This document shows, piece after piece, positions 32,422-61,447 of a stretch of DNA of 64,000 bases (positions within the stretch are counted from its first letter, which is position 1; every line of letters begins with the position of its first letter). A program made the position numbers and the translations under genes. Source of the stretch: Nitrospirota bacterium (GTDB lineage Bacteria; Nitrospirota; UBA9217); NCBI GenBank assembly GCA_035516965.1, contig DATIZR010000040.1, positions 62,001-126,000 of the forward strand. Reading direction: 5' to 3'. The notes beneath the pieces were generated by a model. The model was not told the origin of the DNA. It saw only the letters and a list, made by a program, of their open reading frames with translations, and searched no databases.

Positions 32422-32465
32422 CGGTAAATGCACGTGATCATAAAAATAGCGAGGAGGCTTTAAAC

Positions 32466-33020: not shown

Positions 33021-33048
33021 CGGAGCCCTGTCAAAGGTTAGGCGAGAC

Positions 33049-34080: not shown

Positions 34081-34093
34081 AGGGGGAAATGCT

Positions 34094-35325: not shown

Positions 35326-35346
35326 CGCGGGAGAGAAAAAAGTCGA

Positions 35347-36159: not shown

Positions 36160-36202
36160 TGCGCGGTTCCCGTCATCCCGGACAGGCAAAGGCCGGCAGA
36201 CA

Positions 36203-37153: not shown

Positions 37154-37195
37154 AGAGGCGGAATCAAAAAATCCTGTATTGAGGGGCGGTTGAGC

Positions 37196-38296
37196 ATGTC
37201 GGTACCTATGGTGGACCTGAAGGTCCAATATGAAGCGATCAAAGACGAGATCAACAACGCCGTGCTCGGCGTCTTCGAGAGCACCCATTTCATTCTCGGT
37301 CAGCACGGCAGGGCGCTTGAAGAGGCTGTAGCCGCCTATCACGGCGTCAGGCACGCCGTGGCCGTCGCTTCGGGCACCGATGCGCTCCATCTCGCCCTGA
37401 TCGCCGCAGGCATCCAGCGTGGCGACGAGGTGATCACGACGCCGTTCACGTTCATCGCGACCGCCGAAGCGATCTCCTATATCGGCGCCGTCCCGGTCTT
37501 CGTCGATATCGATCCCGTGACCTACAACTTGGACGTTACGAAGCTCGAAGCCGCGGTAACGCGCAGGACCCGGGCAATCATACCCGTTCATCTCTACGGA
37601 CAGTCCGTGGACATGGATCCGCTCATGGCAGTCGCGAAGAAGCACGGCCTCCGCGTCGTCGAGGACTGTGCGCAGTCCTTTGGTGCGGACTACAGGGGCA
37701 GGAAAACGGGGTCCGTGGGCGACATTGGTTGTTTCAGTTTTTTCCCGAGCAAGAACCTGGGTTGCTACGGCGACGGAGGCATGGTGGTCACCGATGACGC
37801 GGGGCTGGCGGAACGCATGATGAGCCTCCGGAACCACGGGAGTCACGTCCGTTACTATCACGACGAGATCGGCTACAACAGCAGGCTCGACGAGGTCCAG
37901 GCGGCGATACTCCGGGTCAAGTTCAGGCATATCGATGCGTACAACGCAAATCGCAGGAACAACGCACAGCTGTACAACCGGCATCTAGCCGGCGCGGACA
38001 TCAGGACGCCGTCCGAGCAGAAGGGCTCCACGCATGTGTACCACCAGTACACGGTCCGGGTACGCAACCGGGACGCCGTGAAACAGAAACTGGACGAAGG
38101 GAACGTGACGTCCTCGATGATCTACTACCCTGTCCCCCTGCATTTGCAGGCCGCATACAGGGAACTCGGCGTGAAGCAGGGGAGCCTGCCCGGATCGGAA
38201 CTGGCGGCTCAGGAGGTCCTCTCGCTTCCCATGTACCCCGAACTGACCGAGGCGCAGATACAGACAGTTGCCGCCGCGGTCAAAAAAGCGCTCTAG
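37196..38296 (+). CDS. gnnB: DegT/DnrJ/EryC1 aminotransferase, probable GnnB
   Basis: PLP-dependent sugar aminotransferase of 366 residues. It begins MVDLKVQYEAIKDEI; the PLP phosphate and ring contacts ASGTDALHLAL and VEDCAQSFGA, and the Schiff-base Lys186 in FFPSKNLGCYGDGG, are intact. Directly after the Gfo/Idh oxidoreductase, it would convert the 3-keto sugar to UDP-2-acetamido-3-amino-2,3-dideoxyglucose, the precursor of 2,3-diamino lipid A. ATG 37196 has GAGGGG nine bases upstream; the in-frame TTG at 37190 is less likely. Other sugar targets, such as O-antigen amino sugars, remain possible. Confidence 0.72.
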   Translation: MSVPMVDLKVQYEAIKDEINNAVLGVFESTHFILGQHGRALEEAVAAYHGVRHAVAVASGTDALHLALIAAGIQRGDEVITTPFTFIATAEAISYIGAVPVFVDIDPVTYNLDVTKLEAAVTRRTRAIIPVHLYGQSVDMDPLMAVAKKHGLRVVEDCAQSFGADYRGRKTGSVGDIGCFSFFPSKNLGCYGDGGMVVTDDAGLAERMMSLRNHGSHVRYYHDEIGYNSRLDEVQAAILRVKFRHIDAYNANRRNNAQLYNRHLAGADIRTPSEQKGSTHVYHQYTVRVRNRDAVKQKLDEGNVTSSMIYYPVPLHLQAAYRELGVKQGSLPGSELAAQEVLSLPMYPELTEAQIQTVAAAVKKAL

Positions 38297-38329
38297 AGGG
38301 CTTGCGCCCGATGCAGGCGGGTTTCCCCG

Positions 38330-39490
38330 ATGAAAAAAATCATGATCATGTCCGGAGAGGCCTCCGGCGATCTGCACGGCGCAAATCTCGCGAGGGAGAT
38401 CAGGAAAAAAGACCCGTCCATCGCGTTGTACGGCGTGGGCAGCAGGCGCATGCAGGAAGCCGGCGTGGCTATGCTGGCCGATGCCTCGCAGATATCGGTC
38501 GTGGGCATAACGGAGGTCATCACTCATCTCGGCACGATCTACGGCGTTCTTTCGCGGCTTAAACGGTTTCTGAAGCAGGATCGACCCGACCTCCTCATCC
38601 TGATCGATTTCCCAGACTTCAATATCATGCTTGGCAAGGCAGCACGGAAGCTGGGGATCCCGGTCCTGTATTATGTGAGCCCGCAGGTCTGGGTATGGCG
38701 GAAAGGACGGATCAAGACGATCGCGCGCCTGGTAAAGGCCATGATCGTGGTCTTCCCCTTCGAAGTGCCGCTGTACCAACAGGCCGGCGTGGACGTCCGG
38801 TTCGTCGGACATCCCTTGACGGACGTGGTGGGATCCGGTCTCTCGCAAGAGCAGGCGAAGGCCCTTTTCGGAATGGATCCGAAGCGCCGCACGATCGCCC
38901 TGCTGCCGGGCAGCAGGAGAACGGAGATAGCAAACCTCCTGCCGGACATGCTGCGCGCGGCGGAGATGCTGCTGACGCGCTTCCCGGACCTGCAGTTCGT
39001 GCTTCCCGTCGCACCGACGCTGGACCGGGAAATCATCGCGACAGCCGTCTCAGAGAGCGGGGTGCCGGTGTCCGTGACTGACGGCCGGGTGTACGACGTG
39101 CTCAGAGCTGCCGATGCGGCCATCGTGACGTCCGGCACGGCAACCCTCGAGACGGGATTGATGGGCGTGCCGATGGTGATCGTGTACCGGATTTCCCGGC
39201 TCACCCATGCCGTCATCTCCCGGCTCGTGAGCGGAGTGAAGCATGTCGGCCTCGTCAATATCGTGGCAGACAGACGCCTGGTCCCGGAGTTCATTCAGGA
39301 AGAGGCGAACCCGGCGAACATGGCGGATGCCGTGTCGAAGATGCTGCTCGACCGGAGCTATGCCGACGAAATTCGCGAGGGCCTGGACGAAGTCCGCAAA
39401 CGCCTGGGGGACAAGGGGACGTCGGCGCGGGCCGCGGCTGTCGTGATGGAAATTCTGCAGGGGTCATCTCAGGGTCATGGAAATCTATAA
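38330..39490 (+). CDS. lpxB: Lipid A disaccharide synthase LpxB
   Basis: Glycosyltransferase that joins lipid X and UDP-diacylglucosamine into the beta-1,6 lipid A disaccharide. Protein of 386 residues. Starts KKIMIMSGEASGDLHGANL; the SPQVWVWRKGR, KTIAR and GHPLTDV motifs and the C-terminal TSGTATLETGLMGVPMVIVYR donor-binding segment are typical. The gene follows the aminotransferase by 33 bases and overlaps msbA by 14 bases, so expression is coupled. Confidence 0.97.
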   Translation: MKKIMIMSGEASGDLHGANLAREIRKKDPSIALYGVGSRRMQEAGVAMLADASQISVVGITEVITHLGTIYGVLSRLKRFLKQDRPDLLILIDFPDFNIMLGKAARKLGIPVLYYVSPQVWVWRKGRIKTIARLVKAMIVVFPFEVPLYQQAGVDVRFVGHPLTDVVGSGLSQEQAKALFGMDPKRRTIALLPGSRRTEIANLLPDMLRAAEMLLTRFPDLQFVLPVAPTLDREIIATAVSESGVPVSVTDGRVYDVLRAADAAIVTSGTATLETGLMGVPMVIVYRISRLTHAVISRLVSGVKHVGLVNIVADRRLVPEFIQEEANPANMADAVSKMLLDRSYADEIREGLDEVRKRLGDKGTSARAAAVVMEILQGSSQGHGNL

Positions 39491-41219
39491 GAGACTCTTA
39501 ATCTATCTCAAGCCATACCGCACGCGGCTTCTCCTCGCTGGGGTCTTCATGCTGCTCACGAGCGGAATGATCGCCGCTCAGACATACCTGGTGAAGCCCG
39601 CTTTCGATAGAGTGCTGCTGAACAGGGACCTGAGGCTGCTGTTTTTTCTGCCGCCGGCGATTATTATCGTCAGTATCTTGAAGGGCGTGACGTCCTATGC
39701 GCGCGATTACTTCATGGGCTATGTGGGGCAGAAGGTCGTCAACGACATCCGGGACCAGTTGTATTCGCATGCCACATCGCTTTCCTTTTCCTATTTTACG
39801 AAGACTCCGACGGGCGTCATTATCTCAAGGATCATCAACGACGTGAACCTTGTGCAGGGCGCGCTGACCCGGGCGCCGTCGAGCCTGGTCCAGGGCCTGA
39901 CCACGATGCTTGCCCTCACCGGGTATATCCTCTATTTGAACTGGCGCCTCGCGGTATTCTCCATCGTTGTGCTGCCCCTCGCGGGGTTTGCGCTGTCGAA
40001 ATTCAGCAGGCGATTCAGAAAGATAAGCACCCAGATGCAGGAACAGGTCGGAGGCCTGACCATCCATCTCCATGAAACGATCTCCGGCGTCCGCATCGTC
40101 AAGGCGTTCGGTATGGAATCGTATGAAAACCGGCGCTTTGCCGAACGCAATAAGAACCTCTTCAACTCGCTCATGCGCTCGCTGAAAACATCGGCAATAT
40201 CGCATCCGGTCATGGAAGTCATTTCCATGCTGGGAACCTCCCTCGTCATCCTCTTTGGCGGCTACTGGATCATCCGGGGGAGCATGACCGTCGGCGAATT
40301 TCTCTCGTTCATGACCGCATTGGTGTTTTTTTACCGGCCCCTCAAGGACCTGAACGGCATCAATAACACCTTGCAGGACGGGATTGCCGCCGCGCAGCGC
40401 ATCTTTGACGTTGTCGACACGGAACCGGAGATTAGGAACAGGCCCGGGGCTAGCGAAGTACCGCGCAATTTTCGCGTTATTTCCTTTCGTGACATCTCGT
40501 TCAAATACGACGATGTCGCTGTGCTGAAACATATCAATCTTGACGTTCACGCGGGCGAGACCATCGCGATCGTCGGAAAAAGCGGCGGCGGAAAGACGAC
40601 GCTTGTAAACCTCATTCCGAGGTTTTATGATGTTTCGGAGGGGGCGATCCTGATCGACGGACTGGATATCCGCAATGCCACCCTGGAATCCCTCAGGGCC
40701 TGCACGGCCATTGTTACCCAGCAGACGATCCTCTTTAATGATACGGTCCGGGACAATATCGCCTACGGCAGGGCCGCGGTGTCCGACAACGATGTGGTCC
40801 GGGCCGCACGTGCCGCGTACGCAGACGAGTTCATCAGGGCGCTGCCGCAGGGATACGACACGGTGATCGGGGAGTCGGGAGTCAAGCTTTCAGGCGGCCA
40901 GCGGCAGCGCGTCGCCATCGCTCGCGCCATCCTGAAGGACGCTCCGATTCTGATCCTGGATGAGGCCACGTCATCGCTGGACACGGAGTCGGAACGCGAA
41001 GTGCAGAAGGCCCTCGACGTCCTCATGAAGGGCAGGACGAGCTTCGTCATCGCTCACCGGCTGTCGACGATCATGAATGCCGACAGGATCATCGTGCTGA
41101 AAGACGGCATCATCGTGGAACAGGGCGGGCACGAGGAGCTTCTGGCACGGGGCGGCGAATACAAGAACCTTTATGACCAACAGTTCCGGGATGAACCGGC
41201 GGCACGGGTCGCGGAATGA
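39477..41219 (+). CDS. msbA: Lipid A export ABC transporter MsbA
   Basis: Half-transporter that flips core-lipid A across the inner membrane. Protein of 580 residues. Six membrane segments (about 15-290) and a nucleotide-binding domain with Walker A GKSGGGKTT, signature LSGGQRQRVAIARA, and Walker B ILILDEATSSLD. The order lpxB-msbA-acyltransferase-waaA-lpxK is that of Desulfobacterota-like genomes. The ATG is inside the end of lpxB. The substrate is assigned by context; sequence alone gives only the heterodimer/homodimer lipid-exporter family. Confidence 0.93.
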   Translation: MEIYKRLLIYLKPYRTRLLLAGVFMLLTSGMIAAQTYLVKPAFDRVLLNRDLRLLFFLPPAIIIVSILKGVTSYARDYFMGYVGQKVVNDIRDQLYSHATSLSFSYFTKTPTGVIISRIINDVNLVQGALTRAPSSLVQGLTTMLALTGYILYLNWRLAVFSIVVLPLAGFALSKFSRRFRKISTQMQEQVGGLTIHLHETISGVRIVKAFGMESYENRRFAERNKNLFNSLMRSLKTSAISHPVMEVISMLGTSLVILFGGYWIIRGSMTVGEFLSFMTALVFFYRPLKDLNGINNTLQDGIAAAQRIFDVVDTEPEIRNRPGASEVPRNFRVISFRDISFKYDDVAVLKHINLDVHAGETIAIVGKSGGGKTTLVNLIPRFYDVSEGAILIDGLDIRNATLESLRACTAIVTQQTILFNDTVRDNIAYGRAAVSDNDVVRAARAAYADEFIRALPQGYDTVIGESGVKLSGGQRQRVAIARAILKDAPILILDEATSSLDTESEREVQKALDVLMKGRTSFVIAHRLSTIMNADRIIVLKDGIIVEQGGHEELLARGGEYKNLYDQQFRDEPAARVAE

Positions 41220-41866
41220 TGCGGGCCAGACTGCTGTCTTCGATCGGCTGGCTCCTGATCTCTTTCTGGAGCAGATCGGTACGGATCCGGTTCGTGAACA
41301 GAAGCGTGCCGGACCGTCTCAAGGCGGAAGGGAAAAATTTTATTTATGCGTTCTGGCATGGACGGCAGTTCCTGCTTTTTCACAATCACCGCGATTCAGG
41401 CGTTGTCATTCCGGCCAGCGAAAGCAGGGATGGTGAAATCCAAGCCGGGATCCTAAAACGGTTCGGGTTCGACGTGGTGCGCGGTTCCAGTAAACGGAAG
41501 GGCGACCGGGCGCTCCTCGGGCTGGTGGAGGGACTGAGGGCGGGAAAGAACATCGCCCTTGCGGTGGATGGCCCCCGCGGTCCGATCTATGAGGTGAAGC
41601 CCGGCGTGACCTATCTAGCCGGCAAACTCGGCAAGGTCATCGTACCCGTCGCGGCCAGCGCGAAACGGTTCTGGATCCTGGAAAAGATCTGGGACAAGTA
41701 CCTGCTTCCCCTGCCGTTCACCCGCGGCGTGATCGTCTACGGGGAACCGGTCGTCGTGAAGGGGATCGGCGAAGAAGAGCTGGAAGCCACGCGGCACACG
41801 CTGACCGATGCGCTGAACAAGGTGATGAACCAGGCGGACGCGTGTTTTCAGAAAAAGGGCTCCTGA
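41216..41866 (+). CDS. DUF374 acyltransferase, LpxJ-like late lipid A acyltransferase
   Basis: Protein of 216 residues of the lysophospholipid acyltransferase superfamily. Motifs: AFWHGRQFLLFH (putative catalytic His), then DGEIQAGILKRFGFDVVRGSSKRKG and AVDGPRGPIYEVKPGV, the DUF374 hallmark. LpxJ of Helicobacter and related bacteria is a DUF374 protein that adds a secondary acyl chain to lipid A; there is no lpxL/htrB homologue in this window. Location between msbA and waaA supports the same role. One N-terminal membrane helix is likely. It overlaps msbA by four bases (ATGA). Confidence 0.8.
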   Translation: MMRARLLSSIGWLLISFWSRSVRIRFVNRSVPDRLKAEGKNFIYAFWHGRQFLLFHNHRDSGVVIPASESRDGEIQAGILKRFGFDVVRGSSKRKGDRALLGLVEGLRAGKNIALAVDGPRGPIYEVKPGVTYLAGKLGKVIVPVAASAKRFWILEKIWDKYLLPLPFTRGVIVYGEPVVVKGIGEEELEATRHTLTDALNKVMNQADACFQKKGS

Positions 41867-41876
41867 CAAGGTGATC

Positions 41877-43142
41877 ATGTACCTCCTGTACAACATATTT
41901 CTGGTCCTGCTGACCATCCTGATGTTCCCGGTCATCCTGTTCAAGCTCGCGTCGGCCCCTAAATACCGTGGCGGAATAACGCAGAAACTGGGGCGTGTCC
42001 GAAAACGCGTCAAGAGGGTCATCGGCAGAACCCGGCCGATCTGGGTGCATGCCGTGTCCGTCGGAGAGGTCATGGCAGCCCATCCCCTGATCCGGGAGCT
42101 CAAAAAAAAATATCCCGGAAGGAAGCTCATCCTGTCGACCGTTACGGTAACCGGAAACTACACGGCACGGCAGCGTGTCCCGGAAGCGGATGCCGTCTTC
42201 TTCTTCCCCTTCGACTATCCGTGGATCGTGCGCAGGGTCATCCACAGGATCAATCCCGCCATCGTCCTCATCGCGGAGACCGAACTCTGGCCCAATTTTT
42301 TCCGAGAACTGAACCGGATGGGTATCCCGTCAGCGGTGATCAACGGCAGGATATCGCCGCGCTCCTACCGGAACTACCTGAAGTTCAGGAAATTTTTCTC
42401 CGCTGTGTTCAGCAACGTGACCCTGTTCTGCATGCAGTCCGCGTCGGACGCGGAGCGCGTCAGGGAAATCGGGGCACCGGAAGACCGCGTGACGGTGACG
42501 GGCAACCTCAAGTTCGACCAGAAGATGCCGCCGGCCGTGTCCAACCCCGTGACGTTGCCCGCGGGGAGCCGCGTCATAACAGCGGGCAGCACGCACCGGG
42601 GGGAGGAAACAGTGCTGCTTGACGTGTTCCGGCGGCTGCGGGAAAAATTCCCCGAACTCATCCTGATCATCGCGCCCCGCCATCCCGAGCGCTTCGACGA
42701 GGTGGCAGGCATCGTCAATCGTGCGGGCTATGAGTGTCAGCGCAGGACCCGCCTCAGCAGGGACATCAAGGATGTCCTCCTCCTGGACACCATCGGCGAG
42801 CTGAGGTCGTTCTATGGGATTTGCGACATTGCCTTTGTAGGCGGCAGCCTGGTCAAGGTCGGCGGTCACAATCTGCTGGAGCCGGCCATGATGAAGAAGC
42901 CGGTGATCTTCAGCCGATACATGTTCAACTTCAAAGAGATTTCCGAGGCGCTCATCTCCGCCGGGGGCGGGATCCTCGTCAAGGACAAAGAGGAATTCTA
43001 TCTGCAGTGCGAGAAGCTTCTTTCGGACCGGGACCTCGCGCGAAGCATCGGATCCAGGGCGTTCTCGGTGATCGAGGCCAATTCGGGATCCGCCGCGAGA
43101 ACGATCGACGCGATCAGCAGGCTCATCGGTGACAGCCGCTAG
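41877..43142 (+). CDS. waaA: 3-deoxy-D-manno-octulosonic acid (Kdo) transferase
   Basis: Adds Kdo residues from CMP-Kdo to lipid IVA at the inner membrane. Protein of 421 residues. N-terminal membrane anchor (YLLYNIFLVLLTILMFPVILF), then IWVHAVSVGEVMAAHPL and the GT-B fold with INGRISPRSYRNY and VGGSLVKVGGHNLLEPA near the C-terminus. ATG 41877 is chosen because AAGG lies five bases upstream; GTG 41871 is an alternative. Whether it adds one or more Kdo units cannot be seen. Confidence 0.95.
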   Translation: MYLLYNIFLVLLTILMFPVILFKLASAPKYRGGITQKLGRVRKRVKRVIGRTRPIWVHAVSVGEVMAAHPLIRELKKKYPGRKLILSTVTVTGNYTARQRVPEADAVFFFPFDYPWIVRRVIHRINPAIVLIAETELWPNFFRELNRMGIPSAVINGRISPRSYRNYLKFRKFFSAVFSNVTLFCMQSASDAERVREIGAPEDRVTVTGNLKFDQKMPPAVSNPVTLPAGSRVITAGSTHRGEETVLLDVFRRLREKFPELILIIAPRHPERFDEVAGIVNRAGYECQRRTRLSRDIKDVLLLDTIGELRSFYGICDIAFVGGSLVKVGGHNLLEPAMMKKPVIFSRYMFNFKEISEALISAGGGILVKDKEEFYLQCEKLLSDRDLARSIGSRAFSVIEANSGSAARTIDAISRLIGDSR

Positions 43143-44205
43143 GGAATATATCGAAGACGTCATGTATGGAAGGCGGAAGTCCCCGGTCGTCGAGGCCTTC
43201 CTGAGGCTGTTGTCCCTCGTCTACGGTCTTTTAATCCGGCTACGCCATGGCCTAGTCGCCGCAGGCGTGCTGAAGCGGAGAAGACTTTCACAGCGGGTCA
43301 TCTCCGTGGGCAATGTCACCCTCGGGGGAACCGGAAAAACTCCGGCCGTGATGGCGCTTGCCGTACTGCTGGAACAGCATGATCAGAAGCCCGTCGTCGT
43401 GAGCAGGGGGTACGGGCGGAGCGACGAGTCCCGCATCCTCGTCGTTTCCGACGGAAGCAGGCTGCTTGCCGACACTACAGCAGGAGGCGATGAGCCTGTC
43501 CTGATCGGTTCGAGGCTGAAGCGCGTCCCCGTTGTCGTCGGCAGCGACCGTTTCGAGGCGGCACGGTTCGCCTGCGGGCAGTTCGGCAGCGATACGGTCG
43601 TGCTGGACGACGGATTTCAGCATGTCCGGCTGAGAAGAGATCTCGATATCGTACTGATCGACGCCGTCGACCCCTTCGGCAACGGCAGGCTGTTTCCGGC
43701 AGGCATCCTGCGTGAGCCCCTGTCGGCGCTCCGCCGGGCCCAGGTCGTGCTGATCACCGGCGCAGACCGCACGCCCGACGTGGAGCCGTTGAAGCAGGCG
43801 ATCAGGCGGTGGACGGCCGCGCAGATATTCACGTCCCGGCACATGCCCACAGCCCTCGTGAATATCCTGACCGGCGATCCGAAACCCCTGGCGGCGCTCA
43901 GGGGGACCCGTGTACTGGCGTTCGCCGGCATTGCGCGTCCGCAATCGTTCATCGCGACGCTCGGTTCTCTGGAGGCGGACGTCAGGGTGGAGCGGACTTT
44001 TGCCGACCATTATCACTATGGGGCATCCGATCTTGCCGGCATCTATCAGGCGGCGGCCGATCACGGGATCGCCATGATCGTGACAACCGAAAAAGACGGG
44101 GTGAGATTGAAAAGCCTGAGGCCGGAAGGTATCTGGTTGCTCAGGATAGAACTGGCCGTCACTGAGAAGGAAGCATGGGAAACGGCGGTACTCGGCAGGC
44201 GATGA
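43129..44205 (+). CDS. lpxK: Tetraacyldisaccharide 4'-kinase LpxK
   Basis: Phosphorylates the 4' position of the lipid A disaccharide. Protein of 358 residues. The membrane-interacting N-terminus (IEDVMYGRRKSP ... LLSLVYGLLIRLR) is followed by the P-loop in SVGNVTLGGTGKTPAV, the DDGFQHVRLRRDLDIVLID motif, and the C-terminal LAFAGIARPQSF and TTEKDGVRL motifs. The GTG start is needed to include the conserved IEDVMYG segment; ATG 43162 would truncate it. It overlaps waaA by 14 bases and gmhB by four. Confidence 0.96.
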   Translation: MTAAREYIEDVMYGRRKSPVVEAFLRLLSLVYGLLIRLRHGLVAAGVLKRRRLSQRVISVGNVTLGGTGKTPAVMALAVLLEQHDQKPVVVSRGYGRSDESRILVVSDGSRLLADTTAGGDEPVLIGSRLKRVPVVVGSDRFEAARFACGQFGSDTVVLDDGFQHVRLRRDLDIVLIDAVDPFGNGRLFPAGILREPLSALRRAQVVLITGADRTPDVEPLKQAIRRWTAAQIFTSRHMPTALVNILTGDPKPLAALRGTRVLAFAGIARPQSFIATLGSLEADVRVERTFADHYHYGASDLAGIYQAAADHGIAMIVTTEKDGVRLKSLRPEGIWLLRIELAVTEKEAWETAVLGRR

Positions 44206-53178: not shown

Positions 53179-53513
53179 CGATTTCGGGAGGGGGCGATCG
53201 CGGGGAACACTTCTCGCTGAGCTGGCCAACGCAGTCATTGCTGTCTTACTTGACAAGAGATGGAGCATTCTGTATAGTCACCTATGCCTTTTCGGGGGAT
53301 GCATTCTCCACGCTCCCGTGCTGCAGCGATGAGACCAGACATGTCCCTTCTTTCCAGAGGTGTCCTTCCCCGGGGTGAATAGTACCTTGACTCTGAAATT
53401 CCGGTATGAAATAGTAGCGTCGAGTTTTCGCGCGCAGCCGCACCGCGGGAAGAAGCGCGCAGGCTGATCGCGGATTTTGATCCCATTCTTGAGAGAGCGC
53501 AGGGAGGTATACT
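53179..53513 (+). other. 335-base gap: strong promoter and long 5' leader
   Basis: Contains the promoter at 53250-53278 and a predicted leader of about 229 bases to the ATG at 53514. A hairpin with GCGCGC arms lies near 53440-53470. A second weaker promoter-like pair, TTGACT near 53388 with AATAGT 17 bases on, is also seen. No riboswitch that I know could be matched. Confidence 0.55.
53250..53278 (+). promoter_or_regulatory. Near-consensus sigma70 promoter of the envelope operon
   Basis: TTGACA (53250-53255), exactly 17 bases, TATAGT (53273-53278): eleven of twelve consensus positions. The predicted start is near 53285. Confidence 0.82.
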
Positions 53514-54374
53514 ATGTTCCGGTCTGTAGCAGCTTTTCTGGTGATGATCACGGCCGTCGTTTTTATCGTACCGGCGGGCGCATCTGCACAACTGGTCGGT
53601 AGTGTCAAGGATGTCGTGGACTCTGTGGGAAGCACAGGCAAGGTCGATTGGACCACGAGCGTTATCACGGCAGTCGGCATCGGCGCACCGCCTGCTCAGC
53701 CTGCGAACCCGGCGCAGGCGCGGGCTATGGCGGAGCGTGCGGCGCAGGTCGTGGCGCTCCGCAACCTGCTTGAAGCCGTGAAGGGAGTCCGGGTAGATTC
53801 TGCGACCACCGTTGAGAACTTCATCGTGACGAGCGACGTCGTCAAGACCCAGGTAAACGGCATCGTCCAGGGAGCTACGATCATGGACAAGAAGTACATG
53901 TCTGACGGTTCGGTGGAAGTAACCGTCGGCATGAAGCTGACGGGCGCACTCGCCGATGCGCTGATTCCGAAAACGCCGAACGCGGCGCCGGGCGCTGCAC
54001 CGGCGATGCCGGCACCCGGTGTCCAGGGGCAGCTCTACACGGGGCTGGTCGTCGATGCACGGGGGCTGGGGGTGAGGCCTGCCATGGCGCCGAAGATATT
54101 GAACGAGGACGGCAGGGAGGTCTACGGATCGGCACAGATCAACCGGGACTGGGCGGTCAGAGAGGGTATGGCCGGATATCTCAAGGGCGATCCCGCCTCG
54201 GTCCAAACCAACCCCCGGGTGGCGGATAAGCCGCTTGTCGTGAAGGCAATCAAGGCCTCGGGAGAGGGCAGGACCGACCTGGTGATTTCCAACGCCGATG
54301 CGGCCGCCCTGCAGGGCGCGTCCCAGAATCTGAGCATGCTCGAAAAGTGCAGGGTGATCATCCTGGTAGATTAG
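53514..54374 (+). CDS. Exported LPP20/FlgT_N-like protein, paralogue 1
   Basis: Protein of 286 residues with a cleavable signal (cut after AGASA, about 25). Residues about 38-148 have the pattern ARAMAERAAQVVALRNLLEAV ... VNGIVQGATIMDKKYMSDGSVEVTVGM, which resembles the LPP20 / FlgT N-terminal domain found in FlgP and FlgT. A Pro/Ala linker (about 150-170) leads to a C-terminal domain (about 175-286) starting YTGLVVDARGLGVRPAMAPKIL and ending KCRVIILVD, shared with the paralogue at 57072 and not recognised by me. There is no lipobox. First gene of the operon; GGGAGG sits before the ATG. Confidence 0.78.
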   Translation: MFRSVAAFLVMITAVVFIVPAGASAQLVGSVKDVVDSVGSTGKVDWTTSVITAVGIGAPPAQPANPAQARAMAERAAQVVALRNLLEAVKGVRVDSATTVENFIVTSDVVKTQVNGIVQGATIMDKKYMSDGSVEVTVGMKLTGALADALIPKTPNAAPGAAPAMPAPGVQGQLYTGLVVDARGLGVRPAMAPKILNEDGREVYGSAQINRDWAVREGMAGYLKGDPASVQTNPRVADKPLVVKAIKASGEGRTDLVISNADAAALQGASQNLSMLEKCRVIILVD

Positions 54375-54433
54375 CCGGCCGCTTTTTCTGAAAAAGAAAT
54401 CAATGAATGAACCTGGAGACTACGGAGGCAGGA

Positions 54434-55591
54434 ATGACTATCCATCTGAAGCGGATCATGCTGTTTGCGGCGGTCCTGGCCGTTCTGGCGGCCGGGTGCG
54501 GGACCAAGACTGTTCCCCCCACGTCGGTGCTGGATACTCCCGATTACCATTACCGGAACGGTCTTAAATACCTTGACAGCAACCAGATCGATGAAGCCAT
54601 GAAATCCTTTGATCGTGCCGTGGCGATTGCTCCGAAATCTCCTCTCGGCTACATCGGCAAGGGCTTGGCATTTGGGAAGAAGGGCGATTTCAAGGCCGCT
54701 TTCGAGAACATGGATAAGGCGAGGGGCTATGACGAAAAAGGTGTCGAATCCCGGATCGGCATGATACGCCTCCTCAGCATGCAGCGGGGCGAGGATTGGC
54801 TGAAAAAGACCGAGAAGGAGTTTAAATCTGCTCAGGACAAGGATCCCGGCAGCGCGCCCCTTCATTACTACATGGGCCTGGCCTACAAGGTATCCTTTGA
54901 CTTTGATAAGGCCGCGAACATGTTCCGCCGGGTGATCGAGCTGAACAAGGAGTTCACCGCCGAGGCGAACGCCGAATGGGCCACGATCCAGAAGATCCAG
55001 CGCGCCGCACCAGGCTCGGTGATCGGCAAGCAGATCGCGCTTATTGACAGGCTCGACCGCGCTGATATCGCCGCGCTGTTCGTGCAGGAGATGGACCTGG
55101 AAAAGCTCTTCACGAAGCGCGGCGCCAAGACCTATGACACGACCTTCAAGGCGCCGGAAGAAGCCACGGCGTCGGCGATGACGACCGAAACCGTCGTCAA
55201 GATGGAAGCGGCCACCGACATCAAGGACAATTGGCTGAAGCCGAGCATCGACACCGTGCTCAAACTGCACGTGCGCGGGCTGGAGGCGGGCCCCAACCAT
55301 ACCTTCGAGCCGGACAAACTCATAACCAGGGCAGAATTTGCACTGATGCTGGAGGATGTCCTCGTCCGGGTGAGCGGCGATGAAAAGCTGGCCACGAAAT
55401 ACGTCGGTTCCGCGTCCCTGTTCCCCGATGTGCGGAGCGACCACTACGCGTTCAACGCGATTATGGTCGTGACGTCCCGAGGTTTCATCGAGGCTGACAA
55501 GGCTACCGGCGAGTTCAGGCCGGGAGACCCCGTATCCGGGGCGGATGCGCTTCTCGCCATCCGTGAATTCAAGAACCAGTTGAAGTTCTAG
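54434..55591 (+). CDS. TPR lipoprotein with SLH-type C-terminus
   Basis: Protein of 385 residues. Lipobox VLAAGC (Cys22). TPR units (about 38-180), for example YHYRNGLKYLDSNQIDEAMKSF and APLHYYMGLAYKVSFDFDKAANMF. The C-terminal ~120 residues look like SLH repeats (ITRAEFALMLEDVLVRV ... FPDVRSDHYAFNAIMVVTSRGFIE ... GEFRPGDPVSGADALLAI), which bind the cell wall or pyruvylated sugars. Together they suggest an outer-membrane protein that reaches peptidoglycan. ATG 54434 has ACGGAGGCAGG upstream. An intrinsic terminator lies nine bases past the stop. Confidence 0.82.
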   Translation: MTIHLKRIMLFAAVLAVLAAGCGTKTVPPTSVLDTPDYHYRNGLKYLDSNQIDEAMKSFDRAVAIAPKSPLGYIGKGLAFGKKGDFKAAFENMDKARGYDEKGVESRIGMIRLLSMQRGEDWLKKTEKEFKSAQDKDPGSAPLHYYMGLAYKVSFDFDKAANMFRRVIELNKEFTAEANAEWATIQKIQRAAPGSVIGKQIALIDRLDRADIAALFVQEMDLEKLFTKRGAKTYDTTFKAPEEATASAMTTETVVKMEAATDIKDNWLKPSIDTVLKLHVRGLEAGPNHTFEPDKLITRAEFALMLEDVLVRVSGDEKLATKYVGSASLFPDVRSDHYAFNAIMVVTSRGFIEADKATGEFRPGDPVSGADALLAIREFKNQLKF

Positions 55592-55599
55592 CTGCCGTG

Positions 55600-55626
55600 C
55601 CCGCCCCGGTCAGGGGCGGGTTTTTT
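55600..55626 (+). terminator. Rho-independent terminator inside the envelope operon
   Basis: Perfect stem CCCGCCCC (55600-55607) and GGGGCGGG (55613-55620), five-base loop, TTTTTT to 55626. It is six bases before the next ATG, so it may let only part of the transcripts through. Confidence 0.85.
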
Positions 55627-55632
55627 AATACC

Positions 55633-57021
55633 ATGCGAATTGGACCGCTGACGCCATCCCTCATTGCCGTACTGTGCCTCCTTCTTTCCGCCGGCAAGGC
55701 CGGCGCCCACCTCAAGATTCTGGACGGCGAGCACACGGTCGTTTATGATATCGTAAACCCCCGCGGCGTAGCCTTCATTCCCGACTACACGAATGAGTCC
55801 TTTGAGCAGAGGGTCATCAGCCAGGACGAGTTCAGCAAGCGAGTGCAGGTCACGTCGCGCATGCACGCCATGAAAACACGTGTGTCCTATCCCGTTGCGC
55901 CCGGTGTGCTGCCGCAGTCGATTTCGCAGTATCTGACGCCCGAGGCGGACCGGCAGTCAGGCGACCCGGCGCTAGTGAAGATTGCCAGGGACGTGACCCG
56001 TGAAAGCCGTTACGTACACGAGGCTGCAAATGCGATCCTCTCCTGGATCGCAGACAACCTGACCTTTGATACCAGCATCACGGTTCCGACCGATGCGCTT
56101 TCGGCATTGCGCACGAGGAAAGCCTACTGCGTGGGATATTCGAACCTGTCCGTCGCCCTGCTGCGTGCCGCCGGTATCCCTGCTCGCGTCGTCCACGGTT
56201 ATCTGCCCCCCGGGTATGAATGGGGGTTCTCAAAAGAATACTGGGGCGTCAAGGTGAACGACGGCGGGTACCATGCGTACCTTGAGATCTATTATCCTGA
56301 TACGGGGTGGGTCTTCTCGGATGCCGAACACTCGCACAATTTCGTCGATCCTTTTCACATCATTCTGCGCATCGATGGCATGGATATGCCGGGGGCCGTG
56401 CGCGGAGGATTCCTTGACGTGGACAAGGCGACGTTTTATACCATTTTCCAGGAGACGGACAAAACGGCCGTGGTGGATGAACTGCCCATGCCGAGGGAAC
56501 AACGACTCGGCAGGAGGATGGACACCGTTCAGCATTCCGCCCTGGTCACGGGCAAGGTCAGCGACAAAAACGGCAGGCCTGTTCCGAAGGGCAGTGTTGT
56601 CCTCTGGAAAGAAGGCAGGGGAACGCCCTCTCCCTTCACTGACGGCCGCTATGTCACGGCTCTGGCTGGTCCGGGAACGTATCGTGTTGAGGTGAGAGGG
56701 CCGGGATTCACAAAATCATCCCGTGAAGTGCGGGTCGAGCAGGGGCAGGTCTATGCCCTGGACTTTACGCTCCAACCGGGAGGCGTGATCAGGGGCAAAG
56801 TAGTCGACGCATCTGGAAAACCGGTTTCGGACGGCGATGTCTTTTACCGGGAGGGGAGCACCAGCTTCGGAGTCCCTATTGACAAGGACGGGACCTACCG
56901 GATAGACGGGCTGGCTCCCGGACAGTACCGGGTTTCGGTCTTAAACGGTGACAAAGAAACAGCCGGGACGGCTGAAGCCGCTGCCGGCAGGGAAACGGTG
57001 CTCGATTTTGTGATAAAATAG
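55633..57021 (+). CDS. Exported transglutaminase-like protein with two carboxypeptidase-regulatory-like domains
   Basis: Protein of 462 residues with a signal peptide (LTPSLIAVLCLLLSAGKAGA). The papain-like transglutaminase domain (about 120-235) has the triad Cys166 in RKAYCVGYSN, His214 in GGYHAYLEIY, and Asp230 in WVFSDAEH. Two Ig-like CarboxypepD_reg domains follow (ALVTGKVSDKNGRPVPKGSVVL and GVIRGKVVDASGKPVSDGDVFY). It could cross-link or cut isopeptide bonds in envelope proteins. ATG 55633 is the start because the signal peptide begins here; no ribosome site is seen in the T-rich gap, except the GGGCGGG arm of the terminator, 13 bases upstream. Confidence 0.85.
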   Translation: MRIGPLTPSLIAVLCLLLSAGKAGAHLKILDGEHTVVYDIVNPRGVAFIPDYTNESFEQRVISQDEFSKRVQVTSRMHAMKTRVSYPVAPGVLPQSISQYLTPEADRQSGDPALVKIARDVTRESRYVHEAANAILSWIADNLTFDTSITVPTDALSALRTRKAYCVGYSNLSVALLRAAGIPARVVHGYLPPGYEWGFSKEYWGVKVNDGGYHAYLEIYYPDTGWVFSDAEHSHNFVDPFHIILRIDGMDMPGAVRGGFLDVDKATFYTIFQETDKTAVVDELPMPREQRLGRRMDTVQHSALVTGKVSDKNGRPVPKGSVVLWKEGRGTPSPFTDGRYVTALAGPGTYRVEVRGPGFTKSSREVRVEQGQVYALDFTLQPGGVIRGKVVDASGKPVSDGDVFYREGSTSFGVPIDKDGTYRIDGLAPGQYRVSVLNGDKETAGTAEAAAGRETVLDFVIK

Positions 57022-57071
57022 GGTCATTTCGGGCAGTGAAAGGAAATCTTCTTCATCAGGAGCGAGAGATC

Positions 57072-58109
57072 ATGGACTCCATTCATTCAGGAATTATTGC
57101 TGCACTTCTGTCTGTTGTCCTGCCGTTCATCGCGGCAGCCCAGACACCCGGTCCTTCGGACGCGATTGAGTCGACCGTCAATGGGTCGATCAACTGGACC
57201 GTCGGCGAAGTGTATGCGAAGGGAACCGGCGCTCCACCGTCCCAGGCAGTCAACCCGGCCCAGGCCCGTGCCATGGCAGAACGCGCCGCCTTTGTTGTCG
57301 CCATCAGGAACCTGCTTGAGACCGTGAAAGGCGTTCGGGTGGATTCCGAAAGCGTGGTGGAGAACTTCATGGTGAAAAGCGATGTGATCAGGACCAGAGT
57401 GGACGGAATCGTTCAGGGGGCCCGCGTCGTGAGAACGCAATACCTTTCTGACGGTTCCGTTGAAGTGCTCGTCGGAATGAGCATGAAAGGCGCCTTCTTG
57501 AACGCGGTCGTGCCGGACAGTTTCGGACGATCAACGACGCCTGTTCCTCAGCCGCAGGGAAAGCCGCTGCAACCATCACCAGCAAAGCCGTCAACACCGG
57601 GAAAAAAACCGGAACCGGCGAGGCCGGCGCCTGTTCCTCCGGCGCCTCCTCTTCCGGAGGCAAAGCCGGAACCGGCCAAGCCTGCCCCTGCTCCGTCTGA
57701 GCCGAAGATGCCTCAAGTTCCGCAGCCTGCGCCCAATCCTCCAGCGGATGCGACCGTGGCATTCAAGGGCGGCGTCGCGACCGGTCTTGTGATTGACGGA
57801 AGAGGTCTCGGGTTAAGGCCGGCCCTGCTGCCGAAAATTGTCGACCAGAAGGGCCAGGAGGTCTACGTTGGCCAGGTGGTCACCAGGACCAATGCCGTCG
57901 AGCAGGGAGTCGCAGGATACGCCAAGGATGTGAACGCGGCTGCAAACAATTTCCGGGTCACCGACAATCCTGCCGTCATCAGGGGAATGCAGGCTTCAGG
58001 CGCAGCGAGAACCGACATCGTGATCGCGCAGCTCGATGCAGACGCTCTCCGCAAGCTTTCCGCAAAGGGTGATTTTCTGCAGTATTGCCGCGTCATCATT
58101 GTCTATTAG
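57072..58109 (+). CDS. Exported LPP20/FlgT_N-like protein, paralogue 2 with Pro-rich linker
   Basis: Protein of 345 residues, signal peptide cut near AAAQ (23). The N-terminal domain closely matches the first paralogue (NPAQARAMAERAAFVVAIRN, VKGVRVDSESVVENFMV, VDGIVQGARVVRTQYLSDGS). A long Pro/Lys/Glu-rich linker (about 163-225) is inserted before the shared C-terminal domain (ATGLVIDGRGLGLRPALLPKI ... CRVIIVY). Such linkers often cross the periplasm or peptidoglycan. Start ATG has CAGGAGCGAGAG upstream; GTG 57036 is less likely. Function unknown. Confidence 0.78.
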   Translation: MDSIHSGIIAALLSVVLPFIAAAQTPGPSDAIESTVNGSINWTVGEVYAKGTGAPPSQAVNPAQARAMAERAAFVVAIRNLLETVKGVRVDSESVVENFMVKSDVIRTRVDGIVQGARVVRTQYLSDGSVEVLVGMSMKGAFLNAVVPDSFGRSTTPVPQPQGKPLQPSPAKPSTPGKKPEPARPAPVPPAPPLPEAKPEPAKPAPAPSEPKMPQVPQPAPNPPADATVAFKGGVATGLVIDGRGLGLRPALLPKIVDQKGQEVYVGQVVTRTNAVEQGVAGYAKDVNAAANNFRVTDNPAVIRGMQASGAARTDIVIAQLDADALRKLSAKGDFLQYCRVIIVY

Positions 58110-58191
58110 TCGAACAACGAACAATCGGCATCTGCATCCGTCGCGATGAAGACAAACAGTGATCGTCAGGTGCAGGAAGGATAACGGACCA

Positions 58192-59574
58192 ATGAACAGA
58201 ATAGCAAGGCTGGTTGCAGCAGGAAGCGTGGTCCTCGCACTATCGGCCTGTGCGGTCCCACGTCCGGTCCCTCGCTATCATGATGCGAGCAACCCCTTGA
58301 AGCGGGTGGCGGTGCTGCCGATGAAAAACGATACCACCGATGTGGACGGCCCCGAGGTAGTCCGAAAAAAAATGATCGAGGCGCTGGAGGGCAAGTCGTA
58401 TGTCATCAGGGACGTGAAAGAAACGGACCAGATACTCCGGGACCAGATGGGGATCAATCTCGGCGGCCAGCTCTCCCTGACGACGCCGCAAAAGCTGGGC
58501 GAGGTGCTCGGCGTGGACGGCGTCCTGTATGGCACACTCATGGACTTCGATGAGACGACCACGGGATTGCTGGATGTCAGGAAGGTACGGGCAACATTCA
58601 GGCTTGTGAATACCCGCAACGGACAGGCTTTCTGGGAGCGGGGGCTCGGTGTCCGGACCGAGACCAGGATGTCCGGGAGGAGCGGCAGCGTTGCCTCTGC
58701 CGCGGCCCGCGCCGCAGACGCCAGGGAAAAGGATGTCCCGTGGGTGACGATCGAGAGCGTTGAGACCGGCGAACGCAACGTCGGCCAGGCATTTGCCTAC
58801 GGTCTGGGCGCGAAGCTGCTGACCAAGGCTGTCGGCATCCACCTCAACTATGAGGCGACAGAGATGGCGCGGCGGGTCACCGCAAACCTTCCTTGGGGTC
58901 CCGGCCCCGGCGCAGTTGCCGTTGTAAGCCCGCAGCCTCAGTCTGCGCCTCTTCGCGTGCAGCCGCCAGACGCCCCCGCGTTCGGCTACCTGGATTATGG
59001 AAAAAGGAACTTTTCTGCAGAGCTGGTATCAGTCACCCTTTACAAGGGCAGCGGAGAAAGAATGAAATTCACGATCCCGATTGCAAAAGCGGGTGAGCGG
59101 CTTCGCATGGACATTGACCTGGCGGCCATGGCAAACAACGCGGAGAGCATGCCGCAAACAATGAACAGGATTTCACTGCTCCAGCTCGGAGACAAAAGGC
59201 AGAACTATACACTGTACCCGAATGTGCGTAAATACATAGTCAACACTCCGGGTCAACAGGACAGCTTCGCTTTCGAAAAGCCAAAAATCGAGAAAACGAA
59301 CATCGGCAGCGAGGTGGTCGATGGACATCCCGCGGACAAGTACCGGGTGAGGATCACTTATCAGAATGGCAGGGTGGAGGAGGGATTCATCTGGAATGCG
59401 CGGGACCTTGATGCATTGACGATCAAGAGCGAGGTTGAGAACAGCGATGCGCAAACAACGACGGAGCTGAAAAACATTTCCCTGAGAACACCTCCGCCGT
59501 CGCTCTTTGAGATCCCATCGGATTACACCGAAGCGAAGGGGCTCTTGGACCTGATGAACGGGCCCACTAATTGA
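58192..59574 (+). CDS. DUF799/DUF4412 fusion lipoprotein
   Basis: Protein of 460 residues. Lipobox VLALSAC (Cys20). The first part (about 35-225) resembles the GNA1162/DUF799 lipoprotein family, itself related to LpoB/CsgG: LKRVAVLPMKNDTTDVDGPE ... GVDGVLYGTLMDFDE. The C-terminal part (about 320-460) resembles DUF4412: NYTLYPNVRKYIVN, DGHPADKYRVRITYQNG, EGFIWNARDLDAL and FEIPSDYTE, a LolA-like fold in some relatives. The fusion of the two is unusual to me. GCAGGAAGG precedes the ATG. Function unknown; an outer-membrane complex role is inferred from neighbours. Confidence 0.75.
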   Translation: MNRIARLVAAGSVVLALSACAVPRPVPRYHDASNPLKRVAVLPMKNDTTDVDGPEVVRKKMIEALEGKSYVIRDVKETDQILRDQMGINLGGQLSLTTPQKLGEVLGVDGVLYGTLMDFDETTTGLLDVRKVRATFRLVNTRNGQAFWERGLGVRTETRMSGRSGSVASAAARAADAREKDVPWVTIESVETGERNVGQAFAYGLGAKLLTKAVGIHLNYEATEMARRVTANLPWGPGPGAVAVVSPQPQSAPLRVQPPDAPAFGYLDYGKRNFSAELVSVTLYKGSGERMKFTIPIAKAGERLRMDIDLAAMANNAESMPQTMNRISLLQLGDKRQNYTLYPNVRKYIVNTPGQQDSFAFEKPKIEKTNIGSEVVDGHPADKYRVRITYQNGRVEEGFIWNARDLDALTIKSEVENSDAQTTTELKNISLRTPPPSLFEIPSDYTEAKGLLDLMNGPTN

Positions 59575-59602
59575 CCGAGACAGAGGAAAGAGGAGGAATG
59601 AC

Positions 59603-60583
59603 ATGGTAATCCTGAAACGCTTTCTGGTTATTACACTCTGCACCATTGCGGCCGTTTGTGCTGTCACGACAACGAGCGGCTGCGCTCCCCGCATGAAGGG
59701 ACAGACCAAAGACGACACCACACTGACCAAAACGTCAAAGGAACTGCCGCAGACGAGCGACGTCAACGAATACCGGGGGCCGAAGCTGCGGGTCGGCGTC
59801 GTGAACTTCCAGAACAAGACGCCCTCGAAGGTTCTCGGCATCGGCGAGGCGGCGGCAGACATCCTCGGCACGATCCTGCAGAAGACGGACCGCTTCATCG
59901 TGATCCCACAGCAGGACATGGATTCTATCCTGGCGCAGCAGCGCATGGGAGCGTCAGGCGCCATCAATCCCGATACGGCGGCCCAGATGGGACAGGTCCT
60001 GGGATTGAATGCTATCGTGACCGGGGCGGTCACTGCCTATTCCGAGGCTGAAGAGGGCTCTGATTATCTCGTAGCCAAAAGCAAGAAGCAGATCGCACGG
60101 GTTACCGTCGATTATCGCATTGTCGACACGACAACGGGCGTCCAGATCATGGCCGATTCGGGGGCAGGCATCTACTCAAAATCCGTAAGCAGGGTTCTTG
60201 GCATGGGGTCCAAGGCCGGCTATGACCCCGATCTTCGAGACGGGGCGCTCAGGGACGCCCTGACCAAGGCGATGGTCAACATGATGCAGAAACTCGGCAC
60301 CCGGAGGTGGACCGGCCGGATCGCCCAGGTTGACGGCGACAGTCTCTACATCAATGCCGGTCAGAAGTCCGGCCTGAACGTCGGAGACAAGCTGAAGATT
60401 TTCCGGGCGGGAAAGGACATCATTGATCCTGTCACGAAGGTGAAACTGGGCACCACGGAAAGTCCCATTGGCGAAGCCATTGTCCAGCAGAACGACCTCG
60501 GAGATTCGGCGGACCTGTCGATTGCCGCTCCAAGGTCCGGGACCGGATTCAGGCCGGGGGACATTGTCAAGCTGGCTAAATAG
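59603..60583 (+). CDS. CsgG-family lipoprotein with FlgT C-terminal-like domain
   Basis: Protein of 326 residues. Lipobox TTTSGC (Cys27). Residues about 60-225 are a CsgG-type domain (LRVGVVNFQNKTPSKVLGIGEA ... LNAIVTGAVTAYSEAEEG ... VDYRIVDTTTGVQIMADS). Residues about 235-322 match the FlgT C-terminal domain: GRIAQVDGDSLYINAGQKSGL, VGDKLKIFRAGKDIIDPVT, GTTESPIGEAIV. FlgT itself has a CsgG/TolB-like middle domain plus this C-terminal domain, so the protein looks like FlgT without its N-terminal domain. CsgG proper forms an export pore; whether this one does is unclear because the membrane-spanning loops could not be judged. Confidence 0.82.
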   Translation: MVILKRFLVITLCTIAAVCAVTTTSGCAPRMKGQTKDDTTLTKTSKELPQTSDVNEYRGPKLRVGVVNFQNKTPSKVLGIGEAAADILGTILQKTDRFIVIPQQDMDSILAQQRMGASGAINPDTAAQMGQVLGLNAIVTGAVTAYSEAEEGSDYLVAKSKKQIARVTVDYRIVDTTTGVQIMADSGAGIYSKSVSRVLGMGSKAGYDPDLRDGALRDALTKAMVNMMQKLGTRRWTGRIAQVDGDSLYINAGQKSGLNVGDKLKIFRAGKDIIDPVTKVKLGTTESPIGEAIVQQNDLGDSADLSIAAPRSGTGFRPGDIVKLAK

Positions 60584-60618
60584 GAAGATCAGCTGTTTTG
60601 CGCAGAAAGGATACGGGT

Positions 60619-61392
60619 ATGATGAAACGTCTCACGCATCGATTCCTTGTGTTCGCGGCGGTGTTTGCGCTGAGCAACGCGTTGGTTGCAACGGCTGCTG
60701 AACAGCCAGGAACCCGGAAGGAGGCAATCGTCACGGCCCTGGACGGGACCGCCCAGGTCTTTACGAAGGGCAGGCCGGGAGGCAGGGCGCTCAGGAAGGG
60801 CGATCGGCTCGGAAGTGAGCATGAGATCCGGGTAGGGGAGCGGTCGAGGATCGAGATCCGTTTCCCCGACGGGACGGTGATGAGGCTGTCGGAGAAGACA
60901 CACCTGGCGATGAGCGAGCTGAAGTACGACAGCAAGACCGAAAGCAAGAACGTTCAGGTGAGTCTTGCCGTAGGAAAGCTCTGGGCGAACGTGAGAAAGC
61001 TGATGACGCCGGATTCATCGGTGGAGGTCAAAACCAGCAACGCCGTTGCGGGCGTACGCGGGACGGTGTATCGCGTGAACGTGGAGGAAGACCAGAGTGC
61101 ACTGGTCAAGGTCTATGATGGTTCGGTCTCTGTTGCCAGCCCTCCGAAGGACGGCGCGAACAGGCAGCAGGTCCCCTATACCGCCCCGGTGCCGGTCCCC
61201 GGTCCGCACGAGGTGCCTCCGCCCATGCATGAGGTCACCCTGGAAGAATGGCATGTTATCGTGAAGGCCATGCAGCAGGTCTCCATTTCGTCCCAAGGTG
61301 TTGCATCAGAGCCGCAGGAGTTCGATCCCAAAGCTGATGCCGATGACTGGGTAAAATGGAACCAGGAGCGGGACCGGCAGATGAAGTTCTGA
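60619..61392 (+). CDS. Exported FecR-domain protein
   Basis: Protein of 257 residues with a cleavable signal (FLVFAAVFALSNALVATAA). The FecR domain (about 33-150) has DRLGSEHEIRVGERSRIEI, FPDGTVMRLSEKTHLAMSE and VEVKTSNAVAGVRGTVYRV. There is no cytoplasmic anti-sigma part, no inner-membrane helix other than the signal and no sigma factor nearby, so it is not a classical FecR regulator. The C-terminal ~70 residues (VPGPHEVPPPMHEVTLEEW) are not recognised. Such free FecR domains occur in envelope proteins. Start ATG 60619 follows AGAAAGG; last gene of the operon. Confidence 0.83.
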   Translation: MMKRLTHRFLVFAAVFALSNALVATAAEQPGTRKEAIVTALDGTAQVFTKGRPGGRALRKGDRLGSEHEIRVGERSRIEIRFPDGTVMRLSEKTHLAMSELKYDSKTESKNVQVSLAVGKLWANVRKLMTPDSSVEVKTSNAVAGVRGTVYRVNVEEDQSALVKVYDGSVSVASPPKDGANRQQVPYTAPVPVPGPHEVPPPMHEVTLEEWHVIVKAMQQVSISSQGVASEPQEFDPKADADDWVKWNQERDRQMKF

Positions 61393-61416: not shown

Positions 61417-61447
61417 AGGCTCCTCCCGGCAGGGAGGGGCCTTTTTT
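61417..61447 (+). terminator. Rho-independent terminator of the envelope operon
   Basis: Eleven-base stem AGGCTCCTCCC (61417-61427) and GGGAGGGGCCT (61432-61442) with one G-U pair, four-base loop, T-tract to 61447. Confidence 0.9.

Follow-up and report, generated by a model that had tools for sequence, protein, structure and literature searches.

FlgP-, FlgT- and CsgG-like envelope proteins encoded together in Nitrospirota and Desulfobacterota: a candidate flagellum-independent ring or disc

The Vibrio H-ring and the Campylobacter basal disc are rings on the outer-membrane side of some flagellar motors, and the proteins that constitute them have so far been studied as flagellar embellishments. 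FlgP, Lpp20 and FlgT possess a common fold, and the formation of rings by its members correlates with an insert located after the helix and ahead of the strand that follows (Campylobacter motor paper, Nat Microbiol 2025, PMC12222027). Surveys of the H-ring treat FlgO, FlgP and FlgT as flagellar proteins that are tied to the stator type in Gammaproteobacteria (PMC6375700). The present study concerns seven genes at positions 53514-61392 of a 64,000-nucleotide stretch of DNA from a Nitrospirota bacterium (contig DATIZR010000040.1, positions 62,001 to 126,000), termed the window, which encode FlgP-like, CsgG-like and further exported proteins (Table 1). This gene set recurs in two phyla, comprises ring-forming protein types and is retained in genomes devoid of FlgI; therefore, its products probably assemble into a structure, not recognised before, that lies between outer membrane and cell wall. 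No description of the gene combination was found in the literature searched, the coverage of which was partial (few subscription journals and no bioRxiv preprints).

As in the Vibrio H-ring system FlgO-FlgP-FlgT (LPHT ring 8z5n; FlgT 3w1e), a FlgP-like protein, a FlgT-like protein and a lipoprotein of the CsgG/FlgO fold are encoded together, and the structure model of the gene 6 product is closest to FlgT. On the contrary, the present set lies outside flagellar loci and occurs in FlgI-less genomes, its FlgP-like proteins are unlipidated and carry an additional C-terminal domain, and it further comprises GNA1162-like, TPR-SLH, FecR and transglutaminase proteins. The Campylobacter FlgP basal disc (9hmf) shares with it the FlgP-type domain including the ring-linked insert, whereas linkage to a flagellar motor is absent from the present set (PflA and PflB were not sought) and its FlgP-like proteins are fused to the C-terminal domain. 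The latter domain, when searched with the family profile of genes 1 and 4, matches domain 2 of Treponema Tp0624 (5jir, E 4.8e-11). Unlike Tp0624, the products of genes 1 and 4 are devoid of an OmpA-like domain, and wall binding would fall to a separate SLH protein.

Conservation in two phyla and relation to the flagellum

Gene neighbourhoods were read by profile search over all raw open reading frames (ORFs), and orthologues of the operon were encountered in one cluster in at least seven Nitrospirota families as well as in Desulfobacterota. Since synteny is conserved, the set exceeds what chance would yield and constitutes a real conserved system. An earlier note on this DNA had proposed that the genes form one system, and their co-occurrence in many genomes of both phyla leaves that claim standing.

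Within the family of the window, which includes Nitrospirae bacterium GWC2_57_9 as a close relative, the genes are arranged between comF and fur in the order 1-2-3-4-[5-6 or a different CsgG gene]-7. In families f5, f9, f11, f13, f15 and f16, the genes for the TPR-SLH protein and the FlgP-like protein remain adjacent and are usually preceded by genes for FlgT_N and CsgG-FlgT_C proteins, with a transglutaminase gene near in several. Clusters of FlgT-like, CsgG, TPR-SLH, FlgP-like and transglutaminase genes are found at L043-L049, L063-L064 and L073 in Nitrospirota families other than that of the window, and gene 2 is conserved in seven Nitrospirota families and in Desulfobacterota. In families f20 and f21, FlgT-like, LPP20-type and CsgG genes cluster without a TPR-SLH gene. 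At L052:12849-15800 and L053:7197-11240, three LPP20-type genes come after a FlgT-like gene, again without TPR-SLH, and in L053 a CsgG-FlgT_C gene adjoins them; this simpler arrangement resembles flgO-flgP-flgT.

Of 297 Desulfobacterota genomes sampled, 90 encode FlgT-like proteins and 73 encode FlgP-like proteins with the C-terminal domain; the two occur together in 63 genomes (odds ratio 46, Fisher p 5e-32, relatedness being ignored). The two genes were co-localised, i.e., within 8 kb of each other, in 37 genomes, and a TPR-SLH gene occurred in 17 of the 20 clusters fetched (L158-L177). The main gene orders are FlgT-GNA1162-CsgG-TPR-SLH-FlgP-like and FlgP-like-TPR-SLH-FlgT-GNA1162-CsgG-FecR, while a third reads FlgT-CsgG-TPR-SLH-FlgP-like-transglutaminase. 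Orthologues of genes 1, 2, 5, 6 and 7 together with the FlgT-like gene form one same-strand cluster at L161, L162, L163 and L173, with 33-49% identity to the window (45-47% for gene 1, 48-49% for gene 2, 40-47% for gene 6 and 36-41% for gene 7); a few Desulfobacterales records (L041, L042) retain only FlgT-GNA1162-CsgG.

These arrangements bear on the possibility that no single machine exists and that separate envelope lipoproteins, such as LpoB-like peptidoglycan-synthase activators, a wall tether and a protease, share their regulation. That genes 5 and 6 have an LpoB/GNA1162 fold, that modules are separate in some genomes and that a terminator lies inside the operon would agree with this, but the same five families are repeatedly adjacent in two phyla in differing gene orders, and we regard the explanation as highly improbable.

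FlgI, the flagellar P-ring protein, was the only flagellar marker used. With respect to the flagellum (INDEPENDENCE), 11 of the 13 family genomes lack FlgI, one of these being estimated as 100% complete, as does the cluster-bearing f5 genome G017, which is 100% complete. Among Desulfobacterota, it is lacking in 34 of the 63 genomes that encode the FlgT-like as well as the FlgP-like protein and in 20 of the 37 with the co-localised pair, and its association with the pair is, if anything, slightly negative. Because FlgI is missing from 11/13 family genomes and 20/37 co-localised Desulfobacterota genomes, the set does not act as an accessory of the flagellum. The candidate identity of a flagellar H-ring proper was rejected on the absence of FlgI. 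The clusters sit outside flagellar loci and occur in FlgI-less genomes, so that the system claim of the earlier note was not refuted by membership of a described locus; no flagellar, curli or pilus locus was recognised nearby, and the set is not recognisably a curli system.

Protein types of the operon

The products of genes 1 and 4, which are 48% identical and have two domains in common in the alignment, had been described as FlgT_N/LPP20-like paralogues. Pfam supports the LPP20 assignment, with 26.2 bits for gene 1 (cut-off 25.9) and 24.6 bits, just under the cut-off, for gene 4, but profile comparison provides a more precise one: the N-terminal domain of the gene 1/4 family matches FlgP of Campylobacter (9hmf, E 2.3e-20) and of Vibrio (8z5n, 7.9e-10), while no Lpp20 structure was matched up to E 10 in the profile search of the PDB. 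Because FlgP was matched strongly and Lpp20 structures not at all, both proteins are termed FlgP-like, which replaces their interpretation as simple LPP20 lipoproteins. The alignment to 9hmf is gap-free from the SHS2 helix through the insert to the next strand, and the helix-insert pattern is also present in the FlgT-like proteins.

For gene 6, the annotation as a CsgG-like plus FlgT_C unit was confirmed: Pfam yields CsgG at 77.5 bits and FlgT_C below threshold (23.2 versus 27), and in the search of the PDB with the family profile, the core matches CsgG (7e-10) and the C-terminal domain TsaP (6ve2, 7.5e-13; 3jc8, 3.6e-10), while FlgT is hit weakly (0.013). Structure models were built by AlphaFold2 (AF2) from the window and related-locus sequences, and the alignments were shallow. 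The gene 6 model retrieves, as its top Foldseek match, FlgT in the Vibrio LPHT ring (8z5n, E 5e-15, template-modelling score 0.60), then FlgT 3w1e (7.8e-14), followed by CsgG, GNA1162 and PelC. Several of these proteins are known ring formers, and the predicted fold of gene 6 resembles the middle and C domains of FlgT.

The proposed link to FlgT is strengthened by this match and by the FlgT_N proteins whose genes lie inside the cluster in most relatives that do not belong to the family of the window. Nevertheless, the description of the operon as a dissected FlgT is not to be taken literally, because a complete FlgT-like protein with FlgT_N and a CsgG-like middle part is encoded at a separate locus of the same genome. 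Its FlgT_N domain scores 29.9 bits (cut-off 28.8), relatives inside clusters reach up to 49.5 bits, and almost every genome of the family retains the orphan gene; its housekeeping surroundings give no functional hint.

In sequence, the nearest match to the C-terminal domain of gene 6 is TsaP, a protein of a secretin-associated ring, with which it shares the FlgT_C type. Hence, a TsaP-like ring that encircles a type IV pilus or another secretin has to be weighed, and the combination of a lipoprotein with a cell-wall binder would follow the logic of TsaP. Gene 6, however, has a CsgG-like core, Pfam detected no LysM domain in any of the seven products, and no pilus or secretin gene was recognised beside the inspected clusters (co-occurrence of the secretin PilQ was not searched), so such a role appears very unlikely.

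An analogous question is raised by the fold of genes 5 and 6, which is that of the outer-membrane lipoproteins CsgG, PelC and GNA1162: gene 6 or its paralogues might constitute an outer-membrane pore that secretes a fibre or polymer, the remaining proteins acting as gatekeepers and anchors. Membership of gene 6 in the CsgG family, the resemblance of its model to the PelC and CsgG folds, and some relatives (L047, L161) in which the CsgG match is stronger and the hairpin region longer speak for such an export machine. On the other hand, the gene 6 model, which is of moderate confidence, shows one long hairpin, the second membrane hairpin of CsgG is not evident, and the model is closer to FlgT than to CsgG. 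Moreover, no curli or Pel genes were seen, and neither csgA/B/E/F-like nor polymer genes nor a candidate substrate were recognised on reading the window genes and by Pfam of the operon and two neighbours (CsgA/B/E/F profiles were not run). This explanation, too, is given little probability. Of the new ring, export or cross-linking machine envisaged in the earlier note, the conserved system with FlgT- and H-ring-like parts stands, but a CsgG-type export pore is unsupported for gene 6, as the model lacks the second hairpin, albeit at low confidence. Cross-linking by the transglutaminase is speculative, and many clusters lack its gene.

The assignments previously made for the remaining genes proved correct, namely the TPR-SLH lipoprotein (gene 2), the transglutaminase (gene 3), the LpoB/CsgG-related DUF799 lipoprotein (gene 5) and the FecR-domain protein (gene 7). 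In gene 3, residues C166, H214 and D230 are invariant across 12 homologues.

Table 1. Positions of the operon genes, their transcription signals and related features at other loci
Feature	Position	Strand	Basis or context
Promoter-like site TTGACA-17-TATAGT	53250..53278	+	11/12 consensus
Conserved upstream block GTGAATAKTACCTTGAC (53377-53394) and second promoter-like site TTGACT-17-AATAGT	53377..53415	+	Upstream alignment
Gene 1, periplasmic, FlgP-like (LPP20) domain and Tp0624-D2-like C-terminal domain	53514..54374	+	Pfam, profile search, SPI signal peptide
Gene 2, lipoprotein, TPR repeats and SLH repeats, one copy with ITRAE motif	54434..55591	+	Pfam, lipobox
Intrinsic terminator/attenuator between genes 2 and 3	55599..55627	+	Hairpin 55599-55621, 9-bp GC-rich stem, U tract
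Gene 3, periplasmic transglutaminase-like protein, two CarboxypepD_reg repeats	55633..57021	+	Pfam 84.6 bits
Gene 4, second FlgP-like and Tp0624-D2-like protein, Pro-rich linker	57072..58109	+	Identity, alignment
Gene 5, lipoprotein, GNA1162-like (DUF799) and DUF4412-like domain	58192..59574	+	Pfam 46.0 and 23.4 bits; lipobox LSAC
Gene 6, lipoprotein, CsgG-like core and TsaP/FlgT_C-type C-terminal domain	59603..60583	+	Pfam, profile search, Foldseek
Gene 7, periplasmic FecR-domain protein	60619..61392 (start probable)	+	Pfam FecR 68.2 bits
Terminator after gene 7	61420..61443	+	Hairpin, U tract
FlgT-like protein, 390 aa, FlgT_N and CsgG-like middle	L083:9073-10245 (G000:C111)		Orphan among housekeeping genes
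MCE-type cassette (MlaE, MlaF-like ATPase, MlaD, TPR protein)	L168:12743-17134; L043:579-3800; L050:134-3700		

A possible envelope assembly

In our judgement, there is an even chance that the operon encodes most of a flagellum-independent envelope assembly akin to an H-ring or basal disc, tethered to the outer membrane and the cell wall. In such an assembly, the periplasmic FlgP-like proteins of genes 1 and 4 would oligomerise side by side via the FlgP-type insert between helix and strand, yielding a ring or disc below the outer membrane. Lipoproteins 5 (GNA1162-like) and 6 would form or seed an inner-leaflet ring that anchors the FlgP-like layer, the TPR-SLH lipoprotein of gene 2 would tie the assembly to the cell wall, and the FlgT-like protein encoded elsewhere in the genome would bridge the layers, with the transglutaminase and FecR proteins as presumptive accessories. 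In addition, genes 3-7 would be expressed less strongly than genes 1-2 on account of the internal terminator, which would fit the FlgP-like protein and the tether as high-copy parts. The physiological role might be to reinforce the envelope or to serve as a collar at which an MCE-type lipid transporter docks.

Several observations weigh against such an assembly. The gene 6 model reaches a predicted local distance difference test (pLDDT) score of only 62.6 (8 sequences), and the gene 1 model is of low quality (pLDDT 39.5; AF2, 4 sequences), so that the claim of a ring rests on homology; genes 1 and 4 are also devoid of the lipid anchor of FlgP. Within the family, the FlgT-like gene is unlinked to the operon, and genes 5 and 6 are located elsewhere in four genomes and thus form a separable module; hence, the parts need not all belong to one complex. 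In Desulfobacterota, the transglutaminase gene and the second FlgP-like gene are missing from most clusters. Finally, the window genome carries flagellar genes (FlgI and rod/hook-type) on contig C95 of about 10 kb (L095), and may therefore be flagellated or slightly contaminated.

A clue to function is provided by the recurrent MCE cassette MlaE-MlaF-MlaD-TPR, which is found near the cluster in Nitrospirota families f11 (L043, L044, L064, L073) and f9 (L050), at a related f16 locus (L082), and in 7 of the 20 Desulfobacterota loci (L160, L166-L170, L176). A further frequent neighbour, e.g., in L168, is a 242-aa protein that resembles an outer-membrane beta-barrel. Both would agree with the set being the outer-membrane docking part of an MCE system of the Mla/Pqi type, i.e., a collar or conduit that connects a transporter of the MlaFED type in the inner membrane with the outer membrane. 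However, no MlaE or MlaD homologue was found in the window or near the operon in its family, and adjacency by itself is no proof of joint function; we consider the docking role unlikely, though it is not exclusive of a ring. Somewhat more credible, if still tentative and rather doubtful, is the broader proposal that FlgP/FlgT/CsgG-type rings, clamped to the wall by the SLH lipoprotein, operate independently of the flagellum and are coupled to an MCE lipid transporter in many lineages.

If the ring or disc proposed here is real, the FlgP/FlgT/CsgG toolkit would have a life independent of the flagellum across two phyla, in a new structure between outer membrane and cell wall that is perhaps tied to lipid transport. 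Flagellar H-rings and basal discs could have been recruited from a machine of this kind, or they and the machine could be sister uses of one toolkit, and the origin of the H-ring would become accessible to phylogeny and cryo-electron tomography.

Gene layout and transcription signals

The seven ORFs lie on one strand, as had been reported, and export signals were recognised in all seven products by pattern search and reading of the sequences, with lipoboxes in genes 2, 5 and 6 and ordinary signal peptides in genes 1, 3, 4 and 7. The start of gene 2 was corrected to 54434, where the Shine-Dalgarno sequence GGAGG is present, and that of gene 3 to 55633, the longest-ORF start at 55597 falling on the hairpin between genes 2 and 3; gene 7 probably begins at 60619.

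The near-consensus promoter upstream of gene 1 is genuine and conserved in close relatives, its hexamers recurring at a similar place as TATAGT in L066, L036 and L058 and as TATATT in L056 and L057. The block GTGAATAKTACCTTGAC, which is common to most family members upstream of gene 1, may be a regulator site or a second promoter.

With regard to the claim that the genes extend from one promoter to one strong terminator, the final terminator is present, but the unit is split by a strong terminator after gene 2. The GC-rich hairpin directly 3' of gene 2 is kept in 9 of 9 family genomes compared, despite divergence of the sequence around it. Because of this conserved terminator, the model of a single transcript for all seven genes was rejected. 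The ATG of gene 3 follows the U tract by about 10 nt without a visible Shine-Dalgarno sequence, a layout found again in several family members, and attenuation or an unusual mode of initiation is possible at this 5' end.

Elsewhere in the window, a 1829-aa ORF at 3998-9487 on the minus strand has an N-terminus that reads like a Ser/Thr kinase domain. Upstream of the operon, at 30052-44205, the N-termini of the encoded proteins read like BamA, Skp, LpxD, FabZ, LpxA, LpxB, MsbA and products of later lipid A genes.

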